Assembly (NCBI RefSeq): GCF_003427025.1
Contig: NZ_QVAI01000002.1
Location: 186,001-250,000 of the forward strand
Length of the DNA: 64,000 nucleotides
Reading direction: 5' to 3'
From: Jiangella endophytica
GTDB lineage: Bacteria; Actinomycetota; Actinomycetes; Jiangellales; Jiangellaceae
Shown piece after piece: positions 14,973 through 48,158 of this stretch (positions are counted from its first letter, which is position 1; each line of letters opens with the position of its first letter). Below the pieces are notes generated by a model. That model searched no databases. It was not told the origin of the DNA and saw only the letters and a program-made list of their open reading frames with translations. The position numbers and the translations under genes were made by a program.

Positions 14973-15018
14973 CTGTCGGTGCCCGCCCGTAGGGTGGGCC
15001 TCCCACCCGGCCGGGAGG
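14973..15018 (+). repeat. NDp-like hairpin repeat, copy 1
   Basis: TGTCGGTG at 14974-14981, eight bases, then TAGGGT at 14990-14995. This fits the published mycobacterial RecA-NDp/PafBC promoter pattern tTGTCRGTG-N8-TAnnnT. The following GGGTGGG and CCCACCC pair perfectly across three bases, and the outer CCCGCCC pairs with GGGAGGG with one mismatch. On the + strand no gene starts downstream within the next kilobase, so it is not an obvious gene promoter. Confidence 0.75.
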
Positions 15019-15125
15019 GGACCCGACCTCGGCCCGCGAGCGCGAGGCGCGGACCGGCGAGCGCGACCGGAGAACCCGCGAGCGCGAGGCGCGGACCGGC
15101 GAGCGCGGCGTCCGCAAGACCAGCG
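15015..15125 (+). repeat. Degenerate tandem repeat next to NDp-like copy 1
   Basis: The unit GCGAGCGCGAGGCGCGGACC, followed by GGCGAGCGCG, occurs twice with a short divergent spacer between the copies. Read leftward it encodes the repeated LAGPRLALAG. It lies immediately after the NDp-like hairpin, as a different degenerate repeat does after copy 3, which suggests the two features travel or decay together. Confidence 0.6.
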
Positions 15126-15135
15126 CCGAGGGGGC

Positions 15136-15945
15136 TCATGCGGAGTCCGCCGTCACGCTCCAGCCGCCGTCGACGACCAGGCTGGCGCCGGTGACGTAGG
15201 AGGCGTCGGCGGAGCCGAAGAACGCCACCGCGGCGGCCACCTCGTCGGGCCGGCCGAACCGGGCCAGCGTGGTGGCGCGGATGCTCCGCTCGCGGTCCGC
15301 CTCGCTGACGTCGTCCCAGGCCGGCGACATGATCGGCCCCGGGACGACGGTGTTGACGCGCACGTCCGGGCCGTAGTCGGCGGCCAGCTGCCGGCCGAGC
15401 GAGAGCAGCGCGCCCTTCGTCGCCGCATAGGCCGGCCGGCCGGGCAGCCCGCGCATCGCGTGTACCGACGACGTGATGACGATCGACCCGCGGCTGCGGG
15501 TCAGCTGGCCGACCAGCGCACGCACGGCGAGGAACGTCGCGGTGAGGTTGACGTCGAGCTGCCGGTGCCAGTCGGCCACGGCGAGCCGGTCGGCCGGCTC
15601 GATCACGGCGATGGCGGCGTTCGAGTGCAGCAGGTCCAGCCGGCCGGGCCCGTCCTCCAGGCGCCGGGCGACCCGCGCCCAGCCGTCCTCGTCGGCGACG
15701 TCCAGCGACATCCCCTCCGCGCCGCCGCCGAAGTCCGCGGCGGTCACGGACGCCTCGACCGCGCCGCCCAGGGCGGCTTCGTCGACGTCGGCCAGCAGGA
15801 CGTGGGCACCCTCGGCGGCCAGCCGCTGCGCGGTCGCGGCGCCGATGCCGGAGCCGGCGCCGGTGACCAGCGCGACCCGGCCGCGGTAGCGGGGCGCGAG
15901 GACGCTGTCGGTCTCGCTCACGAGCGGCAACCTAGCATTCATCAT
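15136..15945 (-). CDS. SDR-family NAD(P)-dependent oxidoreductase
   Basis: A 269-residue classical short-chain dehydrogenase. It shows the nucleotide-binding TGAGSGIG (about 27-34), SNAAI (usual NNAG), the catalytic Ser in ITSSVH, YAATK as the catalytic Tyr-x-x-x-Lys, and C-terminal ASYVTGASLVVDGGWS. As first gene of the operon with a FadR-type regulator and galactonate dehydratase, it may oxidise an aldose (for example galactose or arabinose) to its lactone or aldonate. That substrate is inferred from neighbours only. ATG 15945 or 15942 are both possible starts. Confidence 0.85.
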   Translation of the reverse strand: MMNARLPLVSETDSVLAPRYRGRVALVTGAGSGIGAATAQRLAAEGAHVLLADVDEAALGGAVEASVTAADFGGGAEGMSLDVADEDGWARVARRLEDGPGRLDLLHSNAAIAVIEPADRLAVADWHRQLDVNLTATFLAVRALVGQLTRSRGSIVITSSVHAMRGLPGRPAYAATKGALLSLGRQLAADYGPDVRVNTVVPGPIMSPAWDDVSEADRERSIRATTLARFGRPDEVAAAVAFFGSADASYVTGASLVVDGGWSVTADSA

Positions 15946-15957
15946 CTTGTATGACTA
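15946..15957 (-). promoter_or_regulatory. Candidate FadR/GntR operator CTTGTATGACTA
   Basis: CTTGTATGACTA lies immediately upstream of the SDR start, in the 71-base region shared with the divergent lacI gene. It resembles TTGTATGACAA-type sites described for FCD-domain GntR regulators of sugar acids, with an imperfect right half. The likely binder is the GntR protein encoded two genes downstream. This is inference from similarity alone. Confidence 0.3.
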
Positions 15958-15992
15958 TTCGAATCGCGTCGGCGATGCGGTTGACGAACCGG

Positions 15993-16008
15993 ATGTGATG
16001 GTTCACAT
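15993..16008 (+). promoter_or_regulatory. LacI-type operator, copy 1
   Basis: A perfect inverted repeat, ATGTGA-TGGT-TCACAT, ending eight bases before the lacI start codon. Actinobacterial LacI operators commonly have ATGTGA/TCACAT half-sites. A second near-copy lies before the ABC binding-protein gene, so this is probably the autoregulatory site of the LacI protein. Confidence 0.65.
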
Positions 16009-16016
16009 TTGCTCCC

Positions 16017-17057
16017 ATGACCGAGCGACCCGCAGACGGCAAGGCGAACCGCCCGCCGGACATCCACGCGGTCGCCCGGCATGCCGGCGTCTCGCACCAG
16101 ACGGTGTCGCGGGTGCTCAACGACCATCCGCGCGTCCGTCCGTCGACCCGCGAGCGGGTCCGCGAGGCAATGCGCGTGCTCGGCTACATCCCCAACGTCG
16201 CCGCCCGCACGCTGATCACCCGCCGGTCCCGGACGCTCGGCCTGGTGGTGCTGAACGAGGAGCTGTACGGCCCCGCGTCGGCGCTGCGCCACATCGAGCA
16301 GGACTCCCGGTCGGCCGGCTACGGGCTGCGCATCCTCAACCTCCCGCCGATGGCCCGCAGCACCCTGCGTGAGGCCGTCGAGTCGCTGCGGCAGCAGTTG
16401 GTCGACGCCGTGATCGTGGTCGACCCGCACCCCGAGGACCAGCCGCTCCTCGGGCCGCTGCCGTCCGACCTGCCGCTGGTGACGGTGGGCGGGCTGCGCT
16501 CGGCGGGCGTGCCGAGCGTGTCGTACGACTCCGGGCCGGGCGTGCGCCAGGCGGTCGAGTACCTGCTCGGCCTGGGCCACCGGACGGTGCACCACATCGC
16601 CGGACCGGCCGGCTGGGCCGAGGCCGACATCCGCCGGACCGTCTGGCAGCGCACACTGGAGCAGGCCGGACGCGAGGTTCCGCCGCCCGTCGAGGGCGAC
16701 TGGACGGCACGGTCGGGGCACGCCGCGGGGCTGGCACTGGCCGGCCGCGACGACGTCACCGCCGTGTTCAGCGCCAACGACCAGATGGCGCTGGGTCTGT
16801 TCCACGCGCTGGCCGAGCGCGGCGTCCGCGCACCCGAGGACGTCAGCGTCGTCGGCTTCGACGACGTACCGGACGCCGCGTACTACCGGCCGTCGCTCAC
16901 CACGCTGCGGCAGGACTTCGCCGAGCTGGGCCGCCACACGGTCCAGCTGGCCCTCCGCCAGATCGAGACCGGGACCCGCGAGGGGGTCGAGAGCGTGACC
17001 CTCGCGCCGCCGAGCCTGATCCTGCGGGCCAGCACCGCACCGCCCCTGTCGACCTGA
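16017..17057 (+). CDS. LacI-family transcriptional regulator
   Basis: A 346-residue regulator. The N-terminal LacI helix-turn-helix and hinge read DIHAVARHAGVSHQTVSRVLN, then RVRPSTRERV and YIPNVAARTL. A periplasmic-binding-like sensor domain follows (VIVVDPHP, FSANDQMALGLFHAL, DVSVVGFDDVP). The short DNA half-site contact helix VSHQTVSRVL suits an operator with a GTGA-TCAC core, matching the two sites found. It probably represses the downstream importer and GH127 gene until the sugar is bound. The gene is monocistronic or leads the importer operon across an 82-base gap. Confidence 0.9.
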   Translation: MTERPADGKANRPPDIHAVARHAGVSHQTVSRVLNDHPRVRPSTRERVREAMRVLGYIPNVAARTLITRRSRTLGLVVLNEELYGPASALRHIEQDSRSAGYGLRILNLPPMARSTLREAVESLRQQLVDAVIVVDPHPEDQPLLGPLPSDLPLVTVGGLRSAGVPSVSYDSGPGVRQAVEYLLGLGHRTVHHIAGPAGWAEADIRRTVWQRTLEQAGREVPPPVEGDWTARSGHAAGLALAGRDDVTAVFSANDQMALGLFHALAERGVRAPEDVSVVGFDDVPDAAYYRPSLTTLRQDFAELGRHTVQLALRQIETGTREGVESVTLAPPSLILRASTAPPLST

Positions 17058-17110
17058 CCCACACCCACCCGAACCGGCACGTCCAGGCACCCAGCACATG
17101 CATCGTGAAA

Positions 17111-17126
17111 ATGTTAAGGATCACAT
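17111..17126 (+). promoter_or_regulatory. LacI-type operator, copy 2
   Basis: ATGTTA-AGGA-TCACAT is one base off the perfect ATGTGA/TCACAT inverted repeat at 15993. It lies 13 bases before the start of the substrate-binding lipoprotein gene, overlapping the likely 5' leader. The pair of sites links the LacI gene to importer control. Confidence 0.6.
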
Positions 17127-17139
17127 CCAGGAGGACACC

Positions 17140-18459
17140 ATGGCGCGCGTTCAACGACGAGCCCGCCCGGCCCGCCTCGCGGCCGCCGTCGCCGCGACGG
17201 CACTGCTGCTGGCGGCCTGCGGCTCCGACGACGAACCGACCAGCACCGGCGGGCAGACCGACGACACCGCTGACGCGGGTGGCGACACCGGCGCGACGCT
17301 GACGATGTGGGCCCGTTCGGTGACGGCGCCGCAGACCGAGGCGCTGGTCGAGGCGTACAACGCCACGCACGAGAACCAGATCGAGCTGACCGTCGTCCCG
17401 TTCGACAGCTACCTGCAGAAGGTGGCGGCGGCGGCCGGCGGCCGCGAGCTGCCGGACCTGCTGGCCGCCAACGTCGTCGAGGCGCCCAACTACGCGCAGC
17501 TCGGACTCTGGCAGGACATCGGCGACCGCATCGACTCGCTCGACCACGCCGACGCGCTGGCGCCTTCGCACATCGACGCGGGCACGGTCGATGACAAGCG
17601 CTACGCGGTCCCGCACGTGGTCGACACCTCGGCGCTCTACGTCAACACGAAGATCCTGGAGGCGGCCGGCGTCGACCCGGCCGACCCGGCGCCGACGCTG
17701 CGGGCACTCGCGGACAACATCGCGACGATCCAGGCGGCGAATCCGGACGTCCAGGGCCTCTACGTCGCCGGCAGCTGCGGCGGCTGCCTGGTCTTCACCA
17801 TCTGGCCGTCCATCTGGGCCTCCGGTGGCGAGGTGCTCGGCGAGGACGGCACCGAGTCGCTGCTGGACCAGCCCGAGGCGCTGGAGGTGTTCGAGGCGTA
17901 CAACCAGCTGTTCGCCGACGGCGCGATCCCCGAGGCCGCGCGGAACGAGGCCGGCCCGACCCAGAACGAGCCGTTCGCGAACGGCCAGGCGGCGTTCTCG
18001 CTGCTCGGCTCGAAGGCGCTCGCGACCATCCCGGAGTCGGACGCGCTCAGCATCGGCGTCGTGCCGATCCCGGGCGTCGACGGCGGCCGCTCGTCGTTCG
18101 TGGGCGGCGACGTCCTCGGCATCTCCTCGTCGTCGGAGCAGGCGGACGCCGCCTGGGACTTCGTCGAGTGGACGCTCAGCGACGAGGCGCAGCTCGAGGT
18201 CATGGCGAAGAACAAGAACCTCACCGTCCGCACCGACCTCGCGTCGAACCAGTACTCCGAGCAGGACCCCCGGCTGGTGCTGCTGAACGAACTGGTCGGC
18301 GAGGGCCGCACACCGTACGCGGGCAACTTCTTCCAGACCTTCAACGACCCGAACGGGCCGGGGCTGCCGCTGATGCGGGCCGGGCTGTTCGGCGACGATC
18401 CCGCGGCGGAGGTGCCCGAGCTCAACGGCGCCGTGAACGACTCGCTGCAGCGGAACTGA
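17140..18459 (+). CDS. ABC sugar transporter substrate-binding lipoprotein
   Basis: A 439-residue extracellular solute-binding protein (family 1). The signal peptide ends in a lipobox, LLLAACG, so Cys near residue 27 is lipidated. The mature part has a Ser/Thr/Asp linker and then the binding fold, opening TLTMWARSVTAPQTEALVEAYN, with KNKNLTVRTDLASN and PYAGNFFQTFN near the end. ATG 17140 follows CAGGAGGA; an upstream in-frame ATG at 17098 would destroy the signal peptide. It delivers an oligosaccharide to the two permeases downstream; an arabinan- or galactan-derived sugar is suggested by the GH127 enzyme. Confidence 0.9.
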   Translation: MARVQRRARPARLAAAVAATALLLAACGSDDEPTSTGGQTDDTADAGGDTGATLTMWARSVTAPQTEALVEAYNATHENQIELTVVPFDSYLQKVAAAAGGRELPDLLAANVVEAPNYAQLGLWQDIGDRIDSLDHADALAPSHIDAGTVDDKRYAVPHVVDTSALYVNTKILEAAGVDPADPAPTLRALADNIATIQAANPDVQGLYVAGSCGGCLVFTIWPSIWASGGEVLGEDGTESLLDQPEALEVFEAYNQLFADGAIPEAARNEAGPTQNEPFANGQAAFSLLGSKALATIPESDALSIGVVPIPGVDGGRSSFVGGDVLGISSSSEQADAAWDFVEWTLSDEAQLEVMAKNKNLTVRTDLASNQYSEQDPRLVLLNELVGEGRTPYAGNFFQTFNDPNGPGLPLMRAGLFGDDPAAEVPELNGAVNDSLQRN

Positions 18460-18469
18460 TCGGAGCGAC

Positions 18470-19375
18470 GTGAGCGCGATCGCCCTCACCCGGCGGCGCG
18501 GACGGCGGCACAGCATCCGCCGTCCGCGCACCGGATTCCTGCTCGTCCTGCCGGCGGCGCTGGTCGCGGTGGGCCTGTTCGTCGTGCCGCTGGTCCTGGC
18601 GGCGCGGATGTCGGTGTCGGACTGGCCGCTGCTGGGCGAGCCGTCCTTCACCGGCCTGGAGAACTACCGCGCGATCGCCGGCAACGATCTGGTCGGCCAG
18701 GCGCTCGGGTTCACCGCGAAGTACGCGGCGGTGATCCTGGTCGTGCTGCTCGCGGTCGCGCTGGGGCTGGCGATGCTGGTCCGGCGGCCGCGGCGCGGCG
18801 TCGGACTGCTGCGGACGGCGTTCTTCCTGCCGGCCGCCGTGGGCCTGACGTCGGCGGCGCTGCTGTTCTACGAGCTGTACTTCGCCGGGCTGTCGCCGGT
18901 GGACGACGCGCTCACCGGGCTCGGGCTCATCGACAGGCCGATCGACTGGCTGGGTCAGCCCGGGACGGCGTTCCTGTCGGTCGTCATCATGATGACCTGG
19001 CGGTTCGCCGGGTTCTACATGCTGATCCTGCTGGCCGGGCTGCAGTCCATCCCCGACGACGTCTACGAGGCGGCCCGGCTGGACGGCGCCAACCGGTGGC
19101 AGACGCTGCGGCACGTGACGCTGCCGCTGCTGCGCCCGTCGCTGGCGCTCTGCACGATCCTCATCATCACCGGCGCGCTGCTGGCCTTCGAGCAGTTCTA
19201 CGTGCTGACGAACGGCGGGCCGGACAACTCGACCGTCACGCTGGTGATCGTCATCGTGCGCGAGGCGTTCTCGTTCCTCGACCTGGGCTCGGCCGCGGCG
19301 ATCTCGATGGTCGTGCTCGGCGGGCTGATCGTGCTCAACGTCGTCCAGCTGCTCGCGCTGCGCCGGGAGAGGTGA
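18470..19375 (+). CDS. ABC sugar transporter permease 1 (MalF type)
   Basis: A 301-residue inner-membrane protein with six predicted helices, starting FLLVLPAALVAVGLFVVPLVL. The EAA loop that contacts the ATPase is EAARLDGANRWQTLRHVTLPLL (positions about 202-223). GTG 18470 is nine bases after the binding-protein stop. It forms the channel with the next permease. No ATPase gene is in the cluster, so a shared MsiK-type ATPase encoded elsewhere is expected. Confidence 0.9.
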   Translation: MSAIALTRRRGRRHSIRRPRTGFLLVLPAALVAVGLFVVPLVLAARMSVSDWPLLGEPSFTGLENYRAIAGNDLVGQALGFTAKYAAVILVVLLAVALGLAMLVRRPRRGVGLLRTAFFLPAAVGLTSAALLFYELYFAGLSPVDDALTGLGLIDRPIDWLGQPGTAFLSVVIMMTWRFAGFYMLILLAGLQSIPDDVYEAARLDGANRWQTLRHVTLPLLRPSLALCTILIITGALLAFEQFYVLTNGGPDNSTVTLVIVIVREAFSFLDLGSAAAISMVVLGGLIVLNVVQLLALRRER

Positions 19376-19380
19376 CCGTC

Positions 19381-20232
19381 ATGACCGCCCTGCTCACGAG
19401 GCCGACGGCCGCCCCCGGCGCAGCGCGCCGGGCGAGACACCGCCGCGCCGGCGTCGTCTCCGGCGTCCTGGCCGCTCTGCTCGCGCTGCTGTTCGCGTTC
19501 CCGCTGGTGCGGGCCGCGATCCTGTCGGTGACCGACGGCGGCGGCCTCACCACGGACAACTACGGCAAGCTGGCCGACTTCGGCGCCGGCCTGCCGACGT
19601 ACCTGTGGAACAGCGCCGTCGTCACGGTCATCACGGTGGCCGGGTCGCTGGCGCTGGCCATTCCGGCCGGCTACGGGTTCGCGCGGTACACGTTCCGCGG
19701 CAAGAACCTGATCTTCGTGCTCATCCTGGCGATCCTGATGATCCCGCACCCGACGATCCTGATCCCGCTGTATGTGCTGCTCGGCGACCTCGGCCTGCAG
19801 AACACGCTGATCGGCGTCGCGCTGGTGATGATCATGTTCCAGCTGCCGTTCTCGGTGTTCATGATGCGCATCGCGTTCTCCGCGGTGCCCGAGGAGCTGG
19901 AGGAGGCGGCCATGCTGGACGGCTGCTCCGAGACCCGCGCGATGCTGCGGGTGTCGCTCGCGGCGGTCGTGCCGAGCGTCGTGACCGTCGGGCTGTTCGC
20001 GTTCTTCGCCGCCTGGAACGAGTTCCTGACCCCGCTCATCCTGCTCAACGACGGCTCCCGGTTCACGCTGCCGATCGCCCTGGTCAGCCTGCGTTCCGGC
20101 GACTTCGGCGCGGTCGACCTCGGCGCGCTGCAGGCCGGCGTCATCGTGTCTGCGCTGCCCTGCGTCGTGCTGTTCCTGCTGCTGCAGCGGCACTACGTGC
20201 GCGGCCTGCTCGCGGGGGCGCTGCGTGGCTGA
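19381..20232 (+). CDS. ABC sugar transporter permease 2 (MalG type)
   Basis: A 283-residue permease. It has six membrane helices (first GVLAALLALLFAFPLV) and an EAA loop at EEAAMLDGCSETRAMLRVSL, where Cys replaces the usual Ala/Gly after DG. ATG 19381 is three codons after an in-frame GTG; both lie just past the permease 1 stop. Together with permease 1 it forms the transmembrane pore of a CUT1-type sugar importer. Confidence 0.9.
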   Translation: MTALLTRPTAAPGAARRARHRRAGVVSGVLAALLALLFAFPLVRAAILSVTDGGGLTTDNYGKLADFGAGLPTYLWNSAVVTVITVAGSLALAIPAGYGFARYTFRGKNLIFVLILAILMIPHPTILIPLYVLLGDLGLQNTLIGVALVMIMFQLPFSVFMMRIAFSAVPEELEEAAMLDGCSETRAMLRVSLAAVVPSVVTVGLFAFFAAWNEFLTPLILLNDGSRFTLPIALVSLRSGDFGAVDLGALQAGVIVSALPCVVLFLLLQRHYVRGLLAGALRG

Positions 20233-20269
20233 GCCGACCGCCGTCCCCTCTGACACCCCAGGAGGCTCC

Positions 20270-22207
20270 ATGCCCGACGCGTCCCATCCGCAGCGCGGCC
20301 TGCCCGTCGCACCGTCACGCGGGCGGCTGACCCCGGTCCCGGCCGGCGACGTCGTCCTCGAGGACGGGTTCTGGCAGGCCCGGCAGGACCTCAACGCGAG
20401 CACCGTCCTCCCGCACGCGCTGGACTGGATCGACCGGCTGGGCTGGACCGACGCGTTCCGGCGGGCGGCGGCGGGCGAGGACGCGCGGCCCCGTCAGGGC
20501 AAGCTGTTCACCGACGCCGACGTGTACAAGACGGCCGAGGCGCTGGCCTGGGAGGCGAGCCGGACGCCGTCCGGTCCCGCGGGCGAGCGGCTGGCCGACC
20601 TCGGGGCGCTGATCCGCTCGGCTCAGGAGCCCGACGGCTACCTCAACACCTGGTTCGGGCACCGGCACGCCGCGGAGAAGTACACGAACCTCAGCCACGG
20701 CTTCGAGCTGTACTGCTACGGGCACCTGATCCAGGCCGGCGTGGCGCGCCTGCGCGGTGGCGCCGAGGACGACCTGACGGCGGCCGCGCTGGCCGCCGCC
20801 GACCACGCCGTCGCGACCTTCGGGGGCGACGGCGACACCCGGATCGACGGCCACCCGGAGATCGAGGCGGCGCTGGTCGAGCTGGCCCGCGTCACCGGAC
20901 AGGAGCGCTACCTCGACCTGGCCGGACGGTTCCTGGCCCGGCGTGGCCACGACACCCTGGAGCACCACGCGATCGGCCCCGAGTACTACCTCGACGACAG
21001 CCCGTTGCGCGATGTCGACGTCCTGCGCGGGCACGCCGTCCGGGCGCTCTACCTGACCGCTGGCGCACTCGACCACGCCGTCGAAACCGGCGACGACGCT
21101 TTGGTCGAGCACCTGGTCGCGCAGTGGGACCGCACCGTCGCGACCCGCACCTACCTGCACGGCGGCATGGGCTCGCGGCACCTCGGCGAGTCGTTCGGCC
21201 ACGACTACGAGCTGCCGACGGAGCGGGCCTACGCCGAGACCTGCGGCGCGATCGCCGGTGTCATGGCCGCTTGGCGGTTCACGCTGGCCACCGGCGAACC
21301 GCGGTTCGCCGACTACGCCGAGCGGGCCCTGTTCAACATGGTCGCCACGGCCCTGCATCCCAGCGGGCGGCGCTTCCTCTACGTCAACCCGCTGCATGTG
21401 CGGCACCCGCTGCCGGAACCGGGCGACGACGAGGCGCCGTTCCGCAAGGACACGCCGCGGGCGCCATGGTTCTGGGTGTCCTGCTGCCCGACGAACCTGG
21501 CCCGGCTGTTCGCGTCGTTCGCCGGCTACGTGGCGACCACGGACGCCGGCGGCCTGCAGCTGCACCAGCTGACCGCGGCCCGCATCGCGACCGACGTGGC
21601 CGGCCAGCGGGTCGTGGTGCGCGTCCACACGTCCTATCCGTGGGACGGCAGCGTCGAGATCGAGATCGTGGAGGCGGACGGCCGCGACTGGGAGCTGGCG
21701 GTCCGGGTGCCCGGCTGGGCCCGGTCGGCCCGCATCGAGGTGGCCGGCGACGTGCGCGTCGTGGTGCCGGGGACGGCCCGGGCGCGGCGCAACTGGCGCC
21801 CCGGCGACCGGCTGACGCTACGGCTGGACACCACGCCGCGGCTGAGCGTCCCGGACCCGCGCATCGACGCGGTGCGCGGCACGGTCGCCGTCGAGCGTGG
21901 GCCGCTCGTCTACTGCGCCGAGGTCCCCGGCGGCGCCGCCGAGGCGCGGCACACCCTGCCGGAGTCGCGACCCAAGCTGACCGAGGTGCCGGCCGGCGTC
22001 GACGGCCTGGACCCGGATGCCGTCGGCGTCGCCACCACCGTCCGGACCACCACCGAGGCCGCGATGCCCGCCTGGCCGTACGGCGCGGCGGCGCCCGAGG
22101 CCGAGACGACCGAGCACGAGCTGACGCTGGTGCCGCTCTACCTGTGGGGCCTGCGCGGCCCGTCGACGATGCGGGTGTTCCTGCCCGTGGAAGGGACGCA
22201 GAGATGA
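20270..22207 (+). CDS. GH127 beta-L-arabinofuranosidase
   Basis: A 645-residue glycoside hydrolase with an (alpha/alpha)6 barrel and C-terminal beta domains. The family zinc/nucleophile set is intact. Glu of GESFGHDYELP is followed 16 residues later by the Glu and then Cys of AYAETC. The Cys-Cys pair of SCCPTNLAR supplies another zinc ligand and the thiolate nucleophile, matching HypBA1 E322, E338, C340 and C417/C418. It releases L-arabinofuranose from beta-linked glycans such as plant extensin sugars. It has no signal peptide, so it acts on imported oligosaccharide. ATG 20270 follows AGGAGG; a GTG at 20225 overlaps the permease. Confidence 0.92.
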   Translation: MPDASHPQRGLPVAPSRGRLTPVPAGDVVLEDGFWQARQDLNASTVLPHALDWIDRLGWTDAFRRAAAGEDARPRQGKLFTDADVYKTAEALAWEASRTPSGPAGERLADLGALIRSAQEPDGYLNTWFGHRHAAEKYTNLSHGFELYCYGHLIQAGVARLRGGAEDDLTAAALAAADHAVATFGGDGDTRIDGHPEIEAALVELARVTGQERYLDLAGRFLARRGHDTLEHHAIGPEYYLDDSPLRDVDVLRGHAVRALYLTAGALDHAVETGDDALVEHLVAQWDRTVATRTYLHGGMGSRHLGESFGHDYELPTERAYAETCGAIAGVMAAWRFTLATGEPRFADYAERALFNMVATALHPSGRRFLYVNPLHVRHPLPEPGDDEAPFRKDTPRAPWFWVSCCPTNLARLFASFAGYVATTDAGGLQLHQLTAARIATDVAGQRVVVRVHTSYPWDGSVEIEIVEADGRDWELAVRVPGWARSARIEVAGDVRVVVPGTARARRNWRPGDRLTLRLDTTPRLSVPDPRIDAVRGTVAVERGPLVYCAEVPGGAAEARHTLPESRPKLTEVPAGVDGLDPDAVGVATTVRTTTEAAMPAWPYGAAAPEAETTEHELTLVPLYLWGLRGPSTMRVFLPVEGTQR

Positions 22208-22633: not shown

Positions 22634-22717
22634 ATGATCACGTTGAGTAGGGGTCTGCTCGCTTCGCCAGGCATCCATTCCTGGTGAAGCGGGAGCACCC
22701 CCACTCAACGTGATCAT
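22634..22717. repeat. Long imperfect inverted repeat 1 (38-bp arms)
   Basis: Arms 22634-22671 and 22680-22717 pair at about 32 of 38 positions around an 8-base loop. The outer 15 bases (ATGATCACGTTGAGT) pair perfectly. It lies just past the cupin stop, and its right arm includes the stop codon of the leftward GH127 remnant. It could act as a bidirectional terminator or be a mobile palindromic element. Confidence 0.8.
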
Positions 22718-22863: not shown

Positions 22864-22944
22864 CCCAAGTTGATCTTGGAGTAGTTCGGCGCTCCATCGG
22901 ACATTTCACCCGGCATTGCCGAACAACTCCAAGATCAACTTGGG
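22864..22944. repeat. Long near-perfect inverted repeat 2 (27-bp arms)
   Basis: Arms 22864-22890 and 22918-22944 pair at 26 of 27 positions (outer bases CCCAAGTTGATCTTGGAGT) around a 27-base loop. The right arm overlaps the last ten bases of the leftward WYL regulator, including its TGA. It probably serves as that gene's terminator. Its layout parallels inverted repeat 1, which also swallows a stop codon. Confidence 0.85.
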
Positions 22945-24038
22945 CTCGACGCCGTGACGGCGGCGGCCGCGCGCGCTCCCAAGGCCGCGACCGCCACCCG
23001 CAGCGCGGGCGGTTCCTGGACGGTGAACGGGCAGCCGAGCGCCACCAGACGGGACGCCAGCCAGTCCATCGAGTCGTCCCGCCGGGCGTCCAGCCGGCAG
23101 TGCCCGTCGTCCACCGCGACGACCTGCCCCGGCGCGTCGCCGAGCCGGCCTGCCACCGCCCTCGCCGGCGCCTCGAACGTCACCACGACGCGCAACCGCG
23201 GCGTGCCCCAGTCGGTGCGCCGCCCGGCGACATAGGCCGCGGCGTCGTCGGCCGGCAGCGTCCGCTCCTCGCGCACCCGCACGCCGGTCGGCTGGACCCG
23301 CGCGATGCGGTCCACCCGGAACGTCCGCCAGCCGTCGCCCTCGCTGCCGAGATGACCGTGGTTGTCGGCGCCCGCCCGTAGGGTGGGATGACCCTCCCAA
23401 CCGGGCGGGGTCTGCGCAGGGGCCCGGTCGACGTCACGGGCGGACGAGGACGTGCCGGCCGCCCGGTCGACGTCCCAGGCGACGAGGTACCAGCGGCGTC
23501 CGGCGGGCACCAGCGCCAGCGGCTCGACCAGCCGGCCCGACTCCGTCGCGTCACCGGACGTGTAGCTGAACCGCACCCGCTCCCGGGTCGCGGCGGCCGC
23601 TGCCAGCGCCGTCAGCACCTCCGGGTCGACCACCGGCCCGTCGGCGCCGAGCGGCAGCGTCGCCGCGCCGAGCGTCCGCACCCGGTGCCGCAGCCGCGGC
23701 GGCAGCACCTGCTCCAGCTTGCCCAGCGCCCGCACCGACGCCTCCTCGATGCCCGCGACAGCAGCCCCGGCGGACGCCCGCAGCCCCACCGCGATCGCCA
23801 CCGCCTCCTCGTCGTCGAGCAGCAACGGCGGCAGCGCGGCGCCCGCGACCAGCCGGTAGCCGCCCGCCGCGCCCAGCGTCGCATCGACCGGATAGCCCAG
23901 GTCGCGGAGCCGGTCGACGTCGCGGCGGACGGTGCGCGGGCTGACGCCCAGCCGCTGGGCCAGCTCGCTGCCGGGCCACTCGCGCGGCGTCTGCAGCAGG
24001 GACAGCAGCGCGAGCAGCCGAGCCGGGGTGTCGGTCAT
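22935..24038 (-). CDS. YafY-type WYL transcriptional regulator with in-frame repeat insertion
   Basis: A 367-residue regulator: an N-terminal HTH_11 winged helix (RLLALLSLLQTPREWPG, GVSPRTVRRDVDRLRDLGYPV), the GGYRL-LPPLLLDDEEAVAIAVGLR linker, a WYL domain (RVRFSYTS, PLALVPAGRRWYLVAWDVDR) and a WCX tail. Its paralogue at 44570 runs directly from WYLVAWDVER to the WRTFRVDR motif. Here about 45 extra residues lie between them. That insert contains a duplicated DVDRA and the reverse reading (HPTLRAGAD) of an NDp-like repeat. ATG 24038 is used; 24050 is possible. It is divergent from the epoxide hydrolase gene, its likely target. Confidence 0.88.
   Translation of the reverse strand: MTDTPARLLALLSLLQTPREWPGSELAQRLGVSPRTVRRDVDRLRDLGYPVDATLGAAGGYRLVAGAALPPLLLDDEEAVAIAVGLRASAGAAVAGIEEASVRALGKLEQVLPPRLRHRVRTLGAATLPLGADGPVVDPEVLTALAAAAATRERVRFSYTSGDATESGRLVEPLALVPAGRRWYLVAWDVDRAAGTSSSARDVDRAPAQTPPGWEGHPTLRAGADNHGHLGSEGDGWRTFRVDRIARVQPTGVRVREERTLPADDAAAYVAGRRTDWGTPRLRVVVTFEAPARAVAGRLGDAPGQVVAVDDGHCRLDARRDDSMDWLASRLVALGCPFTVQEPPALRVAVAALGARAAAAVTASSPS
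23362..23410 (+). repeat. NDp-like hairpin repeat, copy 2, inside a coding sequence
   Basis: TGTCGGCG (23363-23370), eight bases CCCGCCCG, then TAGGGT (23379-23384). It differs from the consensus at one position (C for T in GTG). CCCGCCC and GGGCGGG flank GGGTGGG and CCCTCCC, giving the same double hairpin as the other copies. It is on the strand opposite the WYL gene it interrupts and keeps that reading frame open. Confidence 0.75.
23422..23474. repeat. 14-bp direct repeat flanking part of the WYL insert
   Basis: GCCCGGTCGACGTC occurs at 23422-23435 and 23461-23474. The duplication accounts for the repeated DVDRA in the WYL protein. One copy corresponds to the ancestral WDVDR motif and the other marks the insert side, so the duplication is probably linked to the insertion event. 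Confidence 0.6.
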
Positions 24039-24101
24039 GGATCCCAGCATGCGCCATAACTAGGACAAGAACAGACCTAGATGGCCCCTAGCGTCCGGCG
24101 C

Positions 24102-41250: not shown

Positions 41251-41293
41251 GGGGGCGAGCCTACGGGGACGCGTGGGGGGCGGGTGTCCTGGC

Positions 41294-41785: not shown

Positions 41786-41806
41786 CGCGGGACTCCTCAT
41801 GCCTGG

Positions 41807-41836: not shown

Positions 41837-41935
41837 ACCGCCGGTGCGGTTCTTCCGGCCGGGAGGCATTGCCGACGCGGCGGGTGAGGAGAAGAATCCG
41901 AAGTACCAGCCCCAGTCGTTTCGAGGGGGAAGATC

Positions 41936-42319: not shown

Positions 42320-42338
42320 CACCACATACGCTCGCCGG

Positions 42339-42827: not shown

Positions 42828-43734
42828 CCGGCTCGAGATCGCGGCGGCGCAGGTCGCTGAGCCAGGCGTCGACCCGTCCGGTGTCGGGCCCGGGCGACAG
42901 GTACGACGCCGCGGCCGCCTCGTCGAGCTGCTGCTGCAGCTCCACGCGGTAGGCATCGACCCGCTCCCACGGCAGCGCACCGGCCCGGACGGCCGCCAGC
43001 CTCTCGACGTGCTCATCGGACGGGACGCCGACGTCGCCGCCGCGCAGCAGCGCCTGCCCGTCGATGAGCAGGCGGAGCAGGTCGGCGGCAGCGGTCGCCT
43101 GTTCCTTGTCCAGGCCGTCGTCGCCGGCCAGCCGGGTGAATCCGGCCAGCACGTGGTCGGCGTAGGCGGCGGAGATGGTCTGCGACAGGAACGCCGGCCG
43201 CAGGTCCAGCAGCTCGCTGCCGACCTCGCTGACCCAGACCCGGCGCGGCGACCACAGCAGCTCCAGGCAGATCGGGTCGGCGTCGAGGGCCAGCCGGCAG
43301 AACTGCTCGACCTCCCACGACAGCCAGGACGGTCCCGGCCCGGCGACCTGCTCAGGCGGCTTGCGCAGCGACCAGAACGCCGCCGTGGGCGCCTGATAGA
43401 CGGCGCGCACCGTCAGCTCGGCGCCGGGGTCGGCGGGCGGATGGCCGACGGCGGCGGCGAGCAGCGTGCGCGCGACGACCAGGTCGTCCGGCGCACCGGA
43501 GCGGACCGGTTCCGGCAGCTCGGACGGCGGGTCGGCGAGCGGGGTCAGCTGGTCGGGCGTGGCCTCGACCAGCCGGCCGTCGGCCAGCGCGACGGTGTAC
43601 GCGCCGTCGGCCTCGCGGAGGACGCGGCCGGCGAGACCGCGGCCGTTCCCCGGGCCGGCGGCGTCGGCCGCGGTGCCGTGCACGACGACCTGCATGCCGA
43701 CGGGGACTCGCGCAGGGGCGCTCAGGCGAGACAT
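42808..43734 (-). CDS. RlaP-type nucleotidyltransferase-family protein, catalytic motif degenerate
   Basis: A 308-residue protein. Its middle matches the RlaP family (predicted RNA-repair nucleotidyltransferases, DNA polymerase beta superfamily): VYQAPTAAFWSLRKPPEQV, SWEVEQFCRLALDADPICLELLW, and SELLDLRPAFLSQTISAAYADHVLAGF. The usual active-site GS-x-AYGL...SDVD block should lie just before the first of these, near residue 105. There the sequence reads VGHPPADPGAELTVRAV, with no Gly-Ser and no Asp pair. Catalysis is therefore doubtful. An N-terminal extension of about 70 residues is extra. ATG 43734 is used. Confidence 0.65.
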   Translation of the reverse strand: MSRLSAPARVPVGMQVVVHGTAADAAGPGNGRGLAGRVLREADGAYTVALADGRLVEATPDQLTPLADPPSELPEPVRSGAPDDLVVARTLLAAAVGHPPADPGAELTVRAVYQAPTAAFWSLRKPPEQVAGPGPSWLSWEVEQFCRLALDADPICLELLWSPRRVWVSEVGSELLDLRPAFLSQTISAAYADHVLAGFTRLAGDDGLDKEQATAAADLLRLLIDGQALLRGGDVGVPSDEHVERLAAVRAGALPWERVDAYRVELQQQLDEAAAASYLSPGPDTGRVDAWLSDLRRRDLEPVTTAGA

Positions 43735-43848
43735 GACGACCATTCTCGCTCGCCGCAGGCGCGCCCGTCCGACGATCCATCGGGTTTCAACCGTTTGGAC
43801 CGGATCATTTGCATCGGCAGGTACCTGCGCCGCCGGTAGGTTGAGGTC

Positions 43849-44523
43849 ATGAGCGAGCAGCAGTGGACCGCCGTCGACCGCTATCTCGGCGAGCACCTCG
43901 TCGGCGCCGACCCGGCGCTCGACGACGCGCTGCGGGCCAGCGACGCGGCCGGCCTGCCCGCCATCAACGTCGCACCCAACCAGGGCAAGTTCCTGCACCT
44001 GCTGACACTGATCGCCGGCGCCCGGCGGGTCCTCGAGATCGGCACGCTGGGCGGCTACAGCACCATCTGGCTGGCCCGGGCGCTGCCCGACGACGGCCGG
44101 CTGATCACGCTCGAGGCCGACCCCGCCCACGCCGAGGTGGCCACGGCGAACCTCGGCCGTGCCGGTCTCCTCGACCGCGTCGACGTCCGGGTCGGCAAGG
44201 CGCTGGACACCCTCCCACGATTGCAGGCCGAGGGCGCCGGTCCGTTCGATCTCGTCTTCATCGACGCGGACAAACCGTCCAACCTCGACTACGTCAGCTG
44301 GGCGCTGCGGCTGGGCCGCCGCGGCACCGTCATCGTCGTCGACAATGTCGTGCGCGCCGGCCGGGTCATCGACGCAACCACCGGCGACGCGTCGATCGAC
44401 GGCACCCGGCGGCTGTTCGAGTACGTCGCCACCGAGCCGCGGCTCACCGCGACCGCCGTCCAGACCGTGGGCACCAAGGGCTACGACGGCTTCCTGCTGG
44501 CGCTGGTGACTACCGACCTCTGA
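43849..44523 (+). CDS. Class I SAM-dependent O-methyltransferase
   Basis: A 224-residue catechol/caffeoyl-CoA-type methyltransferase. The SAM motif is RRVLEIGTLGGYSTIWLARALP (about 63-84), with the acidic ribose-binding strand LITLEADPAHAE. The metal site is FDLVFIDADKPSNLDYVSWAL (Asp-Asp pair), with VVVDNVVRAGRV carrying the third ligand. It probably methylates a catechol-like hydroxyl and needs Mg. ATG 43849 is 29 bases past a TAGGTT hexamer that could be a -10 box. Confidence 0.9.
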   Translation: MSEQQWTAVDRYLGEHLVGADPALDDALRASDAAGLPAINVAPNQGKFLHLLTLIAGARRVLEIGTLGGYSTIWLARALPDDGRLITLEADPAHAEVATANLGRAGLLDRVDVRVGKALDTLPRLQAEGAGPFDLVFIDADKPSNLDYVSWALRLGRRGTVIVVDNVVRAGRVIDATTGDASIDGTRRLFEYVATEPRLTATAVQTVGTKGYDGFLLALVTTDL

Positions 44524-44569
44524 GAACGGGCCGTCAGGCCAGGACGCCGGCCGACGAGTCGTTCGAGCA

Positions 44570-45523
44570 TCACGCGACCGCGCGGCCGAACCGCTGCGAG
44601 ATCTCGCGCAGGTAGCCGCGCAGCTCGGCCGGCTCGACGACGTCGAAGTCGGCGGCGATCGCGCCGAGCATGAAGGCCGGCCAGTCCAGCGTGTCGACGT
44701 TCATCGTGAGCCGGCAGGACGCGGCACCGGTCGGCTCGACCGTCCCCCAGGTCGACACCTGGGACGCGACCTCGCCGGCCGGCGCCCGGACGTCGACGAC
44801 GACGCGGTAGCGGGTCGGCACGGCGGCCAGCCGCTCGTGGACGAACGTGGCGGCGTCGGCGGCCGGCAGTTCGCGCGGCCGGAACCGGGCGCCGGTCGCG
44901 ACCGGCTCGGTCAGGCGGTCGACGCGGAACGTGCGCCAGTCGTGCCGTTCGACGTCCCAGGCGACGAGGTACCAGCGGCGCCCGCGCGACACCAGCCGGT
45001 ACGGCTCCACCAGCCGGCCGGTCGCGGCGCCGTCACGCGACGTGTACCGGAACCGCAGCCGCTCGTCGTCGCGGCAGGCCTGCGCGATGACGGTGAGCGC
45101 GTCGGAGTCGACCCGCGGGCCGTCGCCGGGGACGGACGGGACGGTGTAGGTGTGCAGTGCGTCGACGCGGCGACGCAGCCGCGGCGGCAGCACCTGGACC
45201 ACCTTGGTCAGTGCCCGCACCGACGTCTCCTCGATGCCGCCGACGCCACCGCCCGCGGCCGTGCGCAGGCTGACCGCGATGGCCACCGCCTCCTCGTCGT
45301 CCAGCAGCAGCGGCGGCAGCGCGGCACCGGCCTGCAACTGGTAGCCGCCGGCGACCCCCCGGGCGGCGTCGACGGGGTAGCCCAGCTCGCGCAGCCGGTC
45401 GACGTCGCGGCGCAGCGTGCGCGGGCTGACGCCGAGCCGACCGGCCAGTTCCTCCCCCGGCCAGTACCGATGCGTCTGCAGCAGCGACAGCAGCCGCAGC
45501 ATCCGAGCACTCGTGTTCGCCAT
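44570..45523 (-). CDS. YafY-type WYL transcriptional regulator
   Basis: A 317-residue regulator paralogous to the one at 22935. It has the winged helix RMLRLLSLLQTHRYWPG and GVSPRTLRRDVDRLRELGYPV, then GGYQLQAGAALPPLLLDDEEAVAIAVSLR. The WYL domain has RLRFRYTSRD, EPYRLVSRGRRWYLVAWDVE and RTFRVDRLTEP, and a WCX domain follows. It lacks the 45-residue insert of its paralogue and so serves as the uninterrupted reference. It is divergent from the ABC exporter pair (63 bases), which it probably controls. Confidence 0.92.
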   Translation of the reverse strand: MANTSARMLRLLSLLQTHRYWPGEELAGRLGVSPRTLRRDVDRLRELGYPVDAARGVAGGYQLQAGAALPPLLLDDEEAVAIAVSLRTAAGGGVGGIEETSVRALTKVVQVLPPRLRRRVDALHTYTVPSVPGDGPRVDSDALTVIAQACRDDERLRFRYTSRDGAATGRLVEPYRLVSRGRRWYLVAWDVERHDWRTFRVDRLTEPVATGARFRPRELPAADAATFVHERLAAVPTRYRVVVDVRAPAGEVASQVSTWGTVEPTGAASCRLTMNVDTLDWPAFMLGAIAADFDVVEPAELRGYLREISQRFGRAVA

Positions 45524-45585
45524 GTCCCCACCGTCCTCGCTATTGAGGTCAGAAAGTGGCCGGAATGGATTCTAGCGTGGTTCCC

Positions 45586-46578
45586 ATGAACGCCACCATG
45601 ATCCAGACCAGCGACCTGACCAGGCACTTCACGGTCAAGAAGGACGTCGTCGAGGCCGTGCGCGGGCTCGACCTGCACGTCGCGGAGGGCGAGCTGGTCG
45701 CCCTCCTGGGACCGAACGGCGCCGGGAAGTCGACGACGCTGCGCATGCTGACGACGCTGATCCCGCCGACCTCCGGCACCGCGACGGTCGCCGGCTACGA
45801 CGTGGTCGACCGGCAGCGCGACGTGCGCCGGGTCATCGGGTACATCGGCCAGGGCAACGGCGCGGCGCACAGCCAGCGCGGCCGCGACGAGCTGGTCAGC
45901 CAGGGCCGGGCGTACGGCATGAGCGTGCGCGACGCGAAGGCGCGTGCGGACGAGCTGGTCGCGTCGCTGGACCTCGCCGCCGTCGCCGAGCGGCCGGTGT
46001 CGTCGCTGTCGGGCGGGCAGCGACGGCGGCTGGACATCGCGATGGGCCTCATCCACGCGCCCCGGCTGCTCTTCCTCGACGAGCCGTCGACCGGGCTGGA
46101 CCCGCAGAACCGGGCCAACCTGCAGGAGCACATCCTGAAGCTGCGCGCCGAGCACGGCACGACGATCGTGCTGACGACGCACTATCTCGACGAGGCCGAC
46201 GCGATGGCCGAGCGGGTCATCGTCATCGACCACGGCACCGTCATCGCCGACGACACCCCGGCGCGGCTGAAGGCCGAGCACTCGGGCGACCTGATCACGC
46301 TCGGCTTCGGCTCCGCCGCGGACGCGGGACGGGCGGTGACGCGGCTCGGCGCGCTCGCGGATGCGGCCGTGAGCGCCGACGGCGCGGTGGTCGAGGTGCG
46401 GGTGGCGGGCGGACCGCGGCTCGTCCCGGGGGTCCTCCGCGACCTCGACGCCGCCGGCATCGCCGTCGAGTCCACCGCCGTCAACCGGCCCACCCTGGAC
46501 GACGTCTTCCTCAACCTCACCGGGCGCAGCCTGCGCGAGGGCGTCGTCACCACGTCGACCGAGGAGGTCGCGGCATGA
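45586..46578 (+). CDS. ABC exporter ATPase (DrrA-like)
   Basis: A 330-residue ATPase. It shows Walker A GPNGAGKST (about 45), the Q-loop in GYIGQGN, signature LSGGQRRRLDIAMG, Walker B LLFLDEPSTGLDP and the H-loop LTTHYLDEA. A C-terminal extension (DAA-x-IAVESTAVNRPTLDDVFLNLTGR) is typical of DrrA-type drug exporters. ATG 45586 or 45598 may start it. Its stop overlaps the permease ATG by four bases. Export substrate unknown; drugs or antibiotics are usual. Confidence 0.92.
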   Translation: MNATMIQTSDLTRHFTVKKDVVEAVRGLDLHVAEGELVALLGPNGAGKSTTLRMLTTLIPPTSGTATVAGYDVVDRQRDVRRVIGYIGQGNGAAHSQRGRDELVSQGRAYGMSVRDAKARADELVASLDLAAVAERPVSSLSGGQRRRLDIAMGLIHAPRLLFLDEPSTGLDPQNRANLQEHILKLRAEHGTTIVLTTHYLDEADAMAERVIVIDHGTVIADDTPARLKAEHSGDLITLGFGSAADAGRAVTRLGALADAAVSADGAVVEVRVAGGPRLVPGVLRDLDAAGIAVESTAVNRPTLDDVFLNLTGRSLREGVVTTSTEEVAA

Positions 46579-47327
46579 GCGGCACGACCATGATCACCGA
46601 CACCGTCACCGTCTTCAGCCGCGAGCTGCGGCCGGTCCTGCGCGACCCGTTCTCCGTCGTGTTCAGCATGATCCAGCCGCTGGTGTTCCTCGGGCTGTTC
46701 GCGCCGCTGCTCCCCGAGGTCGAGGGCGGCTCCGCGCTGCAGTGGTTCGTGCCCGGCATCGTGGTGATGTCGTGCCTGTTCAGCACATCGTTCACCGGAT
46801 CGAACCTGCTGTTCGAGATCCAGACCGGCGCGCACGAGCGGATGCTGGTGACACCGCTGCGACGGCCGGCGCTGATCGTCGGCCGGGCGCTGAAGGAGAT
46901 CGTCCCGATGATCGTGCAGACGGCGATCATCGTGCTGGTGTGCGTGCCGTTCGGCTTCGACCTGCACGTGCTGGGTGTCCTGGCCGGCGTGGCCATTCTG
47001 GCCGTCATGGCCGTGGGGCTGGGCGCGCTGTCGTACACGCTGGCGCTGGCGTCGAAGAACACCGAGTGGATGTTCTGGACCGTGCAGCAGACCGTGCTGT
47101 TCCCGCTGTTGCTGCTGGCCGGCATCCTGCTCCCGGTCGACGACGGGCCCGGCTGGCTGCGGGCGCTGTCCAGCGCGAACCCGCTGGCCTACGTCGTCGA
47201 CGCGGAACGGGCCCTGTTCAACGGCGAGTTCCCGGCGTCGACCGTGCTGAGCGCCGTCGTCGCCTCGGTCGCCGTCGCCGCCCTCGGTCTGGCGGTCGGG
47301 ACGCGGGCGATGCGGCGCTCGTCCTGA
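46575..47327 (+). CDS. ABC-2 type exporter permease (DrrB-like)
   Basis: A 250-residue protein with six predicted helices (FSMIQPLVFLGLFAPLL, FVPGIVVMSCLFSTSFTG, and others). A DrrB-like signature follows, ERMLVTPLRRPALIVGRALKEI, then LLLLAGILLPVDDGPGWLRALSSANPLAYVVDAERALF. It pairs with the overlapping ATPase gene to form the full exporter as a dimer of each. A divergent WYL regulator likely sets expression. Confidence 0.9.
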   Translation: MSGTTMITDTVTVFSRELRPVLRDPFSVVFSMIQPLVFLGLFAPLLPEVEGGSALQWFVPGIVVMSCLFSTSFTGSNLLFEIQTGAHERMLVTPLRRPALIVGRALKEIVPMIVQTAIIVLVCVPFGFDLHVLGVLAGVAILAVMAVGLGALSYTLALASKNTEWMFWTVQQTVLFPLLLLAGILLPVDDGPGWLRALSSANPLAYVVDAERALFNGEFPASTVLSAVVASVAVAALGLAVGTRAMRRSS

Positions 47328-47380
47328 GCAAGGCTGCGCGGCCGGCCGCAGGGTCTGACGTCAGTCCCTAAGGTGGTCGC

Positions 47381-47809
47381 ATGGGCGTCATCGGGGTCGG
47401 CTACGAAGGGCACACCATCGAGTCCTTCGTGGCCGGCCTCGCCGCGTCCGGGGTCGGGCTGGTCGCCGACGTGCGGTTCACACCGATGTCGCGCAAGCCC
47501 GGCTTCTCCAAGCGCGGCCTGGCCGCGGCGCTGGCCGGCGCCGGCATCGACTACGTGCACCTGCCCGCACTGGGCAACCCGAGGGACAACCGGGTGCCGT
47601 TCGCCGCGGGCGACCCGGCGGCGCGGCAGCGCTACGCGGACCGGCTGGCCGAACCGGAGGGCCGCGAGGCGCTGGACCTGCTGGCCGGTGAGTCCGAGAC
47701 CCGGCTGGTGGCGCTGCTGTGCCTGGAGGAGGACCAGTCCCGCTGCCACCGCCAGGTCGTGCTCGACCGGCTCGGTGGAACGGCCCCAGGTCGCCCGGAC
47801 GACCGGTAG
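47381..47809 (+). CDS. DUF488 family protein
   Basis: A 142-residue protein. The opening GVGYEGHTIESFVAGLAASGV and the strand VADVRFTPMSRKPGFSKRGLAAAL, then YVHLPALGNPRD, are standard for DUF488. The late CLEEDQSRCHRQVVLDRL has the conserved C-x-H. Family function is unproven, although Arg/Lys and Cys/His conservation suggests an enzyme. The ATG follows a TAAGGT hexamer by eight bases, so a leaderless-like short 5' region is possible. Confidence 0.85.
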   Translation: MGVIGVGYEGHTIESFVAGLAASGVGLVADVRFTPMSRKPGFSKRGLAAALAGAGIDYVHLPALGNPRDNRVPFAAGDPAARQRYADRLAEPEGREALDLLAGESETRLVALLCLEEDQSRCHRQVVLDRLGGTAPGRPDDR

Positions 47810-48158
47810 GCGGGGCTCGTCGACAACCTGGTCGACAAGGCTGGTCGACAGGCGGCCGGCTCCGCTGCGTCGGCGGGCGCCCGATGCGACGGCGCCCGCA
47901 CGTGTGTCGGCGTCGGCCCGACCCGGCAGCACGCCGACACGGCAGGGCGGCGACGCAGCAGCGTTCGCCGACGTTGTCGGTGCCCGCCCATAGGGTGGGC
48001 CCCCTCCCAGCCGGGCGGGTTGCGTCTTCGGTCACGCGCCGCGCACGAGCCGGGCCGCCGCGCCCCACCCGCGAGCCAGGCCGCCGCGCGCCACCCACCG
48101 GCCGAGCCGCTGCACGGCCACCCATCGGCCGGGCCGCCGCGCCCGCCGTCCGCCCTCG
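47810..48158. repeat. Gene-free repeat block between DUF488 and the FAD oxidoreductase
   Basis: I find no gene here. From 47819 GTCGACA occurs three times at 12-13 base spacing (47819, 47831, 47844). The third NDp-like hairpin lies at 47974-48020. After about 48045 a degenerate unit of about 28 bases (GAGCCGGGCCGCCGCGC with CCACCC) repeats three to four times up to the FAD-oxidoreductase stop codon. The unit drifts too much for a recent expansion. Confidence 0.6.
47974..48020 (+). repeat. NDp-like hairpin repeat, copy 3
   Basis: TGTCGGTG (47975-47982), eight bases CCCGCCCA, then TAGGGT (47991-47996), preceded by T to give the full tTGTCGGTG. CCCGCCC and GGGCGGG flank it. Reading leftward gives PTLWAGTD, close to the PTLRAG-T/A-D of the other two copies. 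No rightward gene follows within 1.5 kb. Confidence 0.75.

Follow-up and report, generated by a model that had tools for sequence, protein, structure and literature searches.

The stretch of DNA analysed here, a window of 64,000 nucleotides (nt) within the 7.85-Mb genome of Jiangella endophytica (G000 below), holds three copies of a dispersed hairpin repeat whose left half resembles a bacterial DNA-damage promoter. The repeat unit of ~48 bp reads TGTCRGYG + CCCGCCC-NTA-GGGTGGG-loop-CCC[T/A]CCC-N4-GGG[C/A]GGG, in which a box (TGTCRGYG) is followed in order by stem-1 (CCCGCCC), a bulge (NTA), stem-2 (GGGTGGG), a loop, stem-3 (CCC[T/A]CCC), a spacer and stem-4 (GGG[C/A]GGG). The box, stem-1 and the bases that follow match the consensus TGTCRGTG-N8-TAnnnT, which we take to be the PafBC/RecA-NDp damage-promoter motif. 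The three copies and their parts are:

14974 to 15019, plus strand: core of repeat copy 1; the orthologous place is filled in 4 of 9 aligned relatives and empty in 5
Copy 1, left: box 14974-14981, stem-1 14982-14988, bulge GTA 14989-14991, stem-2 14992-14998
Copy 1, right: loop 14999-15001, stem-3 15002-15008, spacer 15009-15012, stem-4 15013-15019
14974 to 14995, plus strand: exact PafBC/RecA-NDp-type promoter match, TGTCGGTG-N8-TAGGGT, in copy 1
15020 to 15110, plus strand: right flank of copy 1, with a pair of direct repeats (repeat family D11) of 49 nt each, which are 71% alike and have a spacing of 42 nt
23363 to 23409, plus strand: core of repeat copy 2, inside a WYL gene and read in frame on the minus strand as the peptide TPPGWEGHPTLRAGADN
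Copy 2, left: box TGTCGGCG 23363-23370, stem-1 23371-23377, bulge GTA 23378-23380, stem-2 23381-23387
Copy 2, right: loop 23388-23391, stem-3 23392-23398, spacer 23399-23402, stem-4 23403-23409
23363 to 23384, plus strand: PafBC-type promoter match in copy 2, with one mismatch
22935 to 24050, minus strand: host gene of copy 2, an HTH_11-WYL-WCX regulator with a 42-residue in-frame insert relative to the relatives G007 and G009
47975 to 48019, plus strand: core of repeat copy 3; the 2 relatives that align across the place (G007, G009) are without a copy
Copy 3, left: box 47975-47982, stem-1 47983-47989, bulge ATA 47990-47992, stem-2 47993-47999
Copy 3, right: loop 48000-48001, stem-3 48002-48008, spacer 48009-48012, stem-4 48013-48019
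47975 to 47996, plus strand: exact PafBC/RecA-NDp-type promoter match, TGTCGGTG-N8-TAGGGT, in copy 3

The original prediction, which had proposed hairpin repeats with a damage-promoter core at 14974, 23363 and 47975, was accurate in its positions and sequence blocks, and all three sites are on the plus strand: the block pattern has 3 matches in the window with 0 mismatches, and none in 100 shuffles. The proposed promoter fit is exact at sites 1 and 3 and departs by one base (TGTCGGCG) at site 2, and the plus strand, taken as single-stranded DNA, folds better than shuffles at all three sites (z -2.3 to -2.7). Folding of the minus strand against shuffles is weaker at site 1 (z -1.9) and site 3 (z -0.7) and reaches z -3.2 at site 2. 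A search of the window against Rfam at the gathering threshold gave 0 matches. The placement of site 2 required correction, as this copy lies in frame within the coding gene at 22935-24050.

The scale on which the repeat occurs exceeds the three sites of the window. The J. endophytica genome contains 64 copies at up to 3 mismatches, against 0 for a reversed-pattern control; the absence of any excess over chance, which would have refuted the original prediction, is thus not what was observed. At up to 2 mismatches, 10 of 12 Jiangella genomes contain the repeat and none of 28 other genomes does; the numbers of copies in Jiangella are:

G000 (J. endophytica) 60; G001 23; G002 33; G004 107; G005 17; G007 5
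G008 4; G009 63; G010 174; G011 33; G003 0; G006 0

With up to 3 mismatches allowed, G010 reaches 188 copies, and the range per Jiangella genome is 0 to 188. When a covariance model was made with 57 of the 64 J. endophytica copies and up to 150 candidates were scored per genome (a limit that G010 reaches), the same 10 of the 12 Jiangella genomes were positive and none of 10 other family members was. The repeat is thus restricted to the genus Jiangella among the genomes searched. An origin from phages or plasmids was considered and rejected, since the exact pattern had 0 matches in viral contigs and one 92-nt copy used as a query found no match in phage and plasmid records. Among the titles and abstract openings listed for papers on PafBC with palindromic repeats, on Jiangella repeats, on repetitive extragenic palindromic (REP) elements in Actinobacteria, on RecA-NDp, on mobile promoters and on the promoters of Correia elements and miniature inverted-repeat transposable elements (MITEs), none names such a repeat.

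The same promoter motif occurs elsewhere in the J. endophytica genome in a different setting. There are 63 exact matches to TGTCRGTG-N8-TAnnnT, 43 of them at repeat copies and 20 elsewhere. A start codon 5-10 nt past the motif that opened at least 100 codons was scored as a start of the leaderless type; such a start codon, 6-9 nt on, is found at 13 of the 20 non-repeat sites, compared with 212 of 2000 random places, and at 0 of 62 repeat copies (2 of the 64 lie too close to a contig or locus end). The products of ten of the 13 leaderless genes were scanned and comprise RecA, UvrB, UvrC, RadA, an AlkZ-like glycosylase, a DUF222 protein, thymidylate kinase, an epoxide hydrolase, a methyltransferase and an L-PSP family protein. 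The repeat shares the box, the 8-nt spacing and the TAnnnT with the promoters of J. endophytica recA, uvrB and uvrC; it differs in that the spacer and the -10 element sit in hairpin arms, in its copy number of up to 188 per genome and in having no gene start directly behind it. The claim that no gene start lies downstream of the repeats therefore stands for starts of the leaderless type, and the copies are not confined to gene promoters; it needs qualification at site 2, where an ATG 3 nt beyond the motif opens a 223-codon frame, which runs antisense to the WYL gene and is without a Pfam match. A separate case within the window is a DUF2277 gene (8762-9043, minus strand), which has TGTCGGCGGCTGCGCCTAGGCT at 9051-9072 (minus strand) with the start codon 7 nt on; apart from a C as the seventh base of the box, this upstream motif resembles a PafBC-type promoter of a leaderless gene.

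Each of the 12 Jiangella genomes has a strong PafC-HTH match. In J. endophytica this match (130 bits) lies at C34:75295, on a different contig from the window. The window had been said to encode a PafB/PafC-like pair, a claim that we do not uphold: the two candidates are HTH_11-WYL-WCX regulators ~20 kb apart, with 28.7 and 24.0 bits in hmmscan against the PafC-HTH cut-off of 32 and with no NCBIfam match at E<=1e-10. In a six-frame search, the first WYL frame together with its in-frame neighbours gave 34 bits, just above the same cut-off. The published accounts, cited here and below from excerpts, describe PafBC as being activated by single-stranded DNA and as acting on a promoter motif of its own together with RNA polymerase (PMC11804915, PMC6789036), and in one of them PafBC without RNA polymerase did not bind promoter DNA (PMC11804915). 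The excerpts of five papers name RecA-NDp or PafBC promoters without spelling out the motif (PMC8223512, PMC5087735, PMC6789036, PMC5656591, PMC11804915).

Within the repeat, the promoter bases are conserved beyond what the hairpin would call for. In a search that fixed only the hairpin runs and left the box, the bulge and the stem middles free, 55 sites were found in J. endophytica (56 rows, as one site was read on both strands), along with 170 matches in G010 and 62 in G009, against 0 for the reversed control. The box is TGTCRGYG in 50 of the 55 sites; the box, the TA and the final T (with Y allowed in the box) are all kept in 47, and the strict TGTCRGTG-N8-TAnnnT in 37. Over the 56 rows, the first base of the bulge is not G in 17, whereas the T and the A of the -10 element are changed in 4 each (p=1.5e-4), and 55 of 56 have a T as the middle base of stem-2, which is the final base of TAnnnT, although the partner with which it would pair varies between T (31 rows) and A (25 rows) (p=3e-8). 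Judged from this pattern of bases, the bulge TA and the stem-2 middle T are positions that the promoter needs and that the pairing of the hairpin does not. In J. endophytica, 39 of 41 intergenic, 4 of 9 intragenic and 4 of 5 edge copies have kept the promoter part intact (intergenic versus intragenic p=0.001), these classes being assigned by a simple purpose-made gene caller; among 32 copies of relatives that were not chosen by the box, it is intact in 22 of 25 intergenic and 3 of 7 intragenic copies, rows that are partly mutual orthologs and hence not independent. Three of the 20 non-repeat motif sites of J. endophytica look like decayed copies of the repeat (L231, L237 and L240, at C12:480590, C34:369458 and C56:295973); they keep TGTCGGTG and TAnnnT while stem-1 is changed, although they were found by way of the promoter motif and a kept box is therefore expected in them.

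Copies at matching places in different genomes could be compared in 24 locus pairs, 19 with a core and 5 without, of which 15 pairs (13 J. endophytica copies) were counted after 3 locus repeats and 1 unparsed pair had been dropped; multi-copy loci among them may not be paired one to one. Loops, spacers and flanks differ at 42-45% of positions, a figure that leaves out the pairs of changed length (6 loops, 6 spacers and 1 flank). The differences amount to 5 of 45 in the bulge, 10 of 120 in the box and 0, 0, 11 and 1 of 105 in stems 1 to 4, where only stems 3 and 4 are free of the bias that arises from the relatives' loci having mostly been picked by box, stem-1 and stem-2. An arrangement as two tandem hairpins rather than one nested hairpin was rejected. 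The two models differ little in percentage paired (90.4 against 91.4), but in the tandem model 0 of 57 copies form the central pair of the second small hairpin, and in 172 parsed copies (9 of 181 remained unparsed and were dropped) the combination that would pair in tandem, T with A, occurs 0 times and A/A 30 times (p=1.6e-13), a base pattern that subfamily descent could also produce.

Orthology by synteny was followed at five places, and the presence of the repeat varies between relatives, as would be expected of the mobile or decaying hairpin repeat that had been proposed. At site 1, 9 of 10 relatives tried align across the place; 4 carry the repeat, and in the other 5 the two genes nearly abut. 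At site 2 the repeat lies within the WYL gene in 6 of 8 relatives, the exceptions being G007 and G009, and the number of residues between two conserved motifs of the WYL protein is 47 in J. endophytica, ranges from 41 to 76 in five further carriers and is only 5 in the two relatives that lack the repeat, with no stops (this motif test missed the carrier G008). At site 3, 8 relatives were tried and the 2 that align across are both without the repeat. The J. endophytica copy at C1:314362 is found in 0 of 10 relatives and that at C1:323718 in 5 of 9 relatives tested, in the same direction. G008, which is 90.6% identical to J. endophytica at one gene, lacks the site 1 and C1:323718 copies and has that of site 2. 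Since presence does not simply track overall gene similarity, the repeat must have been gained more than once, lost precisely or passed between species.

The surroundings of the repeats have features of their own. Strictly intragenic copies number 23 of 181 (12 in J. endophytica); when 10 of the J. endophytica host proteins were scanned along with the WYL protein, acyltransferase, two ABC-transporter, TetR and phosphotransferase domains were recognized and 5 of the 10 were without a Pfam match, so that six intragenic host genes, the WYL gene included, have Pfam domains. One of these hosts, an APH phosphotransferase-domain gene (L068:2172-3218), has its repeat copy in frame directly past the domain match. 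For 139 copies both neighbouring genes could be assigned; these genes are convergent at 60 copies, codirectional at 64 and divergent at 15, compared with 53, 104 and 80 for a baseline of 237 intergenic regions of at least 100 nt from the window and named loci. Neighbouring copies tend to share their orientation: among 100 listed copies of G010, 20 neighbour pairs lie within 450 nt and 20 of 20 have the same orientation, and five copies in this genome follow each other at a 133-bp period. A repeated 10-mer occurs in 38% of 47 windows of 100 nt beside J. endophytica copies and in 5% of 124 core-free intergenic windows (p=2e-8). In the flanks of the 181 copies, GTTCG occurs 32 times 11-20 nt to the left (3.6 expected) and CGAAC 24 times 10-19 nt to the right (4.1 expected), the opposite motifs being raised as well (13 and 10); these flank motifs may show where the element ends on either side. 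One subfamily of the repeat is distinguished by a TACCTACC-type tail, and locus L242 holds a single repeat copy. Mobilization by a REP-associated tyrosine transposase (RAYT) or IS200-type enzyme was rejected, as Y1_Tnp (IS200-type) transposases were found in 0 of 12 Jiangella genomes while the control was positive in 5 of 14 genomes.

Taken together, these observations lead us to favour, with moderate confidence, the view that the repeat is a Jiangella-specific REP-like palindrome whose left half matches the PafBC (RecA-NDp) promoter, that it has likely spread as selfish DNA and that its promoter would fire short non-coding RNA upon DNA damage. RNA polymerase together with PafBC would start at the repeats after damage. 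The 5' end of the RNA would lie close to the loop or stem-3, a position that the start codon occupies in the leaderless genes. Because stem-1 is the spacer of the promoter and stem-2 holds the end of the -10 element, the DNA hairpin might block or expose that element. Copying would be carried out by some host activity other than a Y1 transposase. On the strength of the motif, damage to the DNA would likely induce small non-coding transcripts at many places in the genome. A titration of PafBC by the repeats is possible, though PafBC was not seen to bind promoter DNA when RNA polymerase was absent (PMC11804915); that the hairpin might expose single strands beside the PafBC site is an attractive idea, by analogy with what activates the regulator. 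A more far-reaching version, in which a hairpin has captured a PafBC promoter and become a genome-wide parasite of the damage switch, with damage opening dozens to nearly 200 copies at once, producing non-coding RNA at gene ends, soaking up the regulator and coupling both copying and local tandem duplication to repair, strikes us as speculative and unlikely.

Several observations weigh against the view that we favour. The direction of the repeats relative to codirectional genes is biased in J. endophytica (15 to 3, p=0.0075) but not significantly so over all copies (38 to 26, p=0.17), and promoter direction is not used as evidence here because the bias is lost in the larger set. No clear or consistent target-site duplication was seen by eye at the orthologous places compared, and no autonomous partner element was found. 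PafC is also present in G003 and G006, both of which are free of the repeat, and 12 of the 56 rows of the hairpin-only search have C at the T of TGTCRGTG and so depart from the strict consensus. Greater age alone could account for the state of the intragenic copies. Contrary to the trend among those copies, a relative's ortholog (in L081) of the intragenic copy L064 is translated and has an exact promoter motif but a decayed hairpin. In formal tests, covariation in the hairpin does not exceed that of shuffles (64 of 500 reach the score). In the published experiments, as excerpted, PafBC did not bind DNA consisting of a hairpin alone (PMC11804915).

The closest competitor would see in the repeat an ordinary REP- or MITE-like selfish palindrome that was born from a PafBC promoter and is not transcribed, the conservation being due to recent descent from a few masters, and we regard this as possible, if doubtful. 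It is consistent with the patchy presence at orthologous places, with the spread from 0 to 188 copies per genome, with the head-to-tail clusters seen in the 20 of 20 close neighbours of like orientation among the 100 listed G010 copies, and with the convergent or 3'-end placement and the in-frame copies, which are known from REPs (PMC3733652). Recent descent is harder to reconcile with loops, spacers and flanks that differ at 42-45% while stems 3 and 4 differ at only 11 and 1 of 105 positions, or with the fact that the promoter bases that do not pair are kept more in intergenic than in intragenic copies. A hairpin acting as RNA, transcribed by read-through from adjoining genes and serving as a bidirectional terminator or as a stabilizer of mRNA 3' ends, seems rather unlikely to us. 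The position of 60 of 139 copies between convergent genes and the ability of both strands to fold would suit such a function, which nonetheless leaves the box, outside the hairpin, and the bulge TA unexplained; moreover, there is no T-run behind the hairpins at the three window sites, and 9 of 26 convergent regions are free of the repeat even in sequences mostly chosen for holding it.

It is improbable, in our estimation, that the insertions serve to bring neighbouring genes under PafBC control as damage promoters. The J. endophytica repeat at C1:323718, ~90 nt upstream of a gene and pointing at it, as in the 5 of 9 relatives with the same direction, is what such a role would predict, but the 0 of 62 copies with a leaderless-type start and the scarcity of copies in divergent regions (15 of 139, against 80 of 237 baseline regions) speak against it. 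Least credible is the suggestion, also contained in the original prediction, that the repeats are relics of the promoter ends of mobile DUF222/HNH genes. One DUF222 gene (L223) does have a PafBC-type leaderless promoter; of 8 loci with DUF222 matches, however, the promoter motif is present at 1 and the box with the hairpin at 0, DUF222 remains beside the repeats not having been searched for. At only one of these 8 loci, L074, does a stretch resemble the left half of the hairpin, at 2 mismatches.

Comparison with known dispersed repeats helps to define what is distinctive about that of Jiangella. REP elements are short dispersed palindromes found mostly between convergent or codirectional genes, with some intragenic copies (PMC3733652), and the Jiangella repeat is placed in the same way. 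The CGTC-type REPs, which apparently have no dedicated transposase, carry a tag that can also read TGTC, located at the base of a stem of 8-9 bp whose first pairs are A-T, and they occur mostly head-to-head, whereas the GTAG REPs are linked to RAYT, a Y1 tyrosine transposase (PMC3733652). In the Jiangella repeat, by contrast, TGTC is followed by RGYG and a stem of G/C pairs, so that an 8-base PafBC box serves as the tag, its last four bases lying between TGTC and the stem; there is no A-T-started stem at the tag, the palindrome is a nested hairpin of G/C runs that contains the -10 element, close copies are arranged head-to-tail, and Y1_Tnp was found in 0 of 12 genomes. Rickettsia palindromic elements are likewise inserted both in protein genes and in intergenic DNA (PMC3733652); the Jiangella repeat resembles them in its habit of inserting in frame into host genes that stay open, and differs in carrying a promoter motif. 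The Correia/NEMIS MITEs of Neisseria are small mobile repeats with a site for integration host factor (IHF) and putative promoters, and thus also place a regulator site on a small dispersed repeat, although they have terminal inverted repeats (PMC2229807), whereas only weak flank motifs and no target duplication were found in Jiangella.

Two other repeats were noted in the course of the analysis. A second dispersed repeat of ~140 bp, unrelated to the hairpin repeat, lies at L243:763-900 (about 307762-307899 of C1 in J. endophytica) and has many listed matches at roughly 80-93% identity in this genome and in related Jiangella genomes. In the window, a long inverted repeat occupies 22634-22717, between convergent genes; its 41-nt arms are 83% complementary and are separated by 2 nt.

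To our knowledge, dispersed palindromes that include a site for a defined stress regulator are few, a related case being the Correia elements with their IHF site (PMC2229807). In Jiangella the site is built into the hairpin unit itself, most of the exact motif matches in J. endophytica (43 of 63) fall in the repeats, and bases that are unneeded for pairing are kept. Three questions thereby become directly testable in a soil genus: whether a selfish repeat can exploit a damage response, whether a regulator can be titrated by repeats, and by what route REP-like DNA spreads where there is no Y1 transposase.

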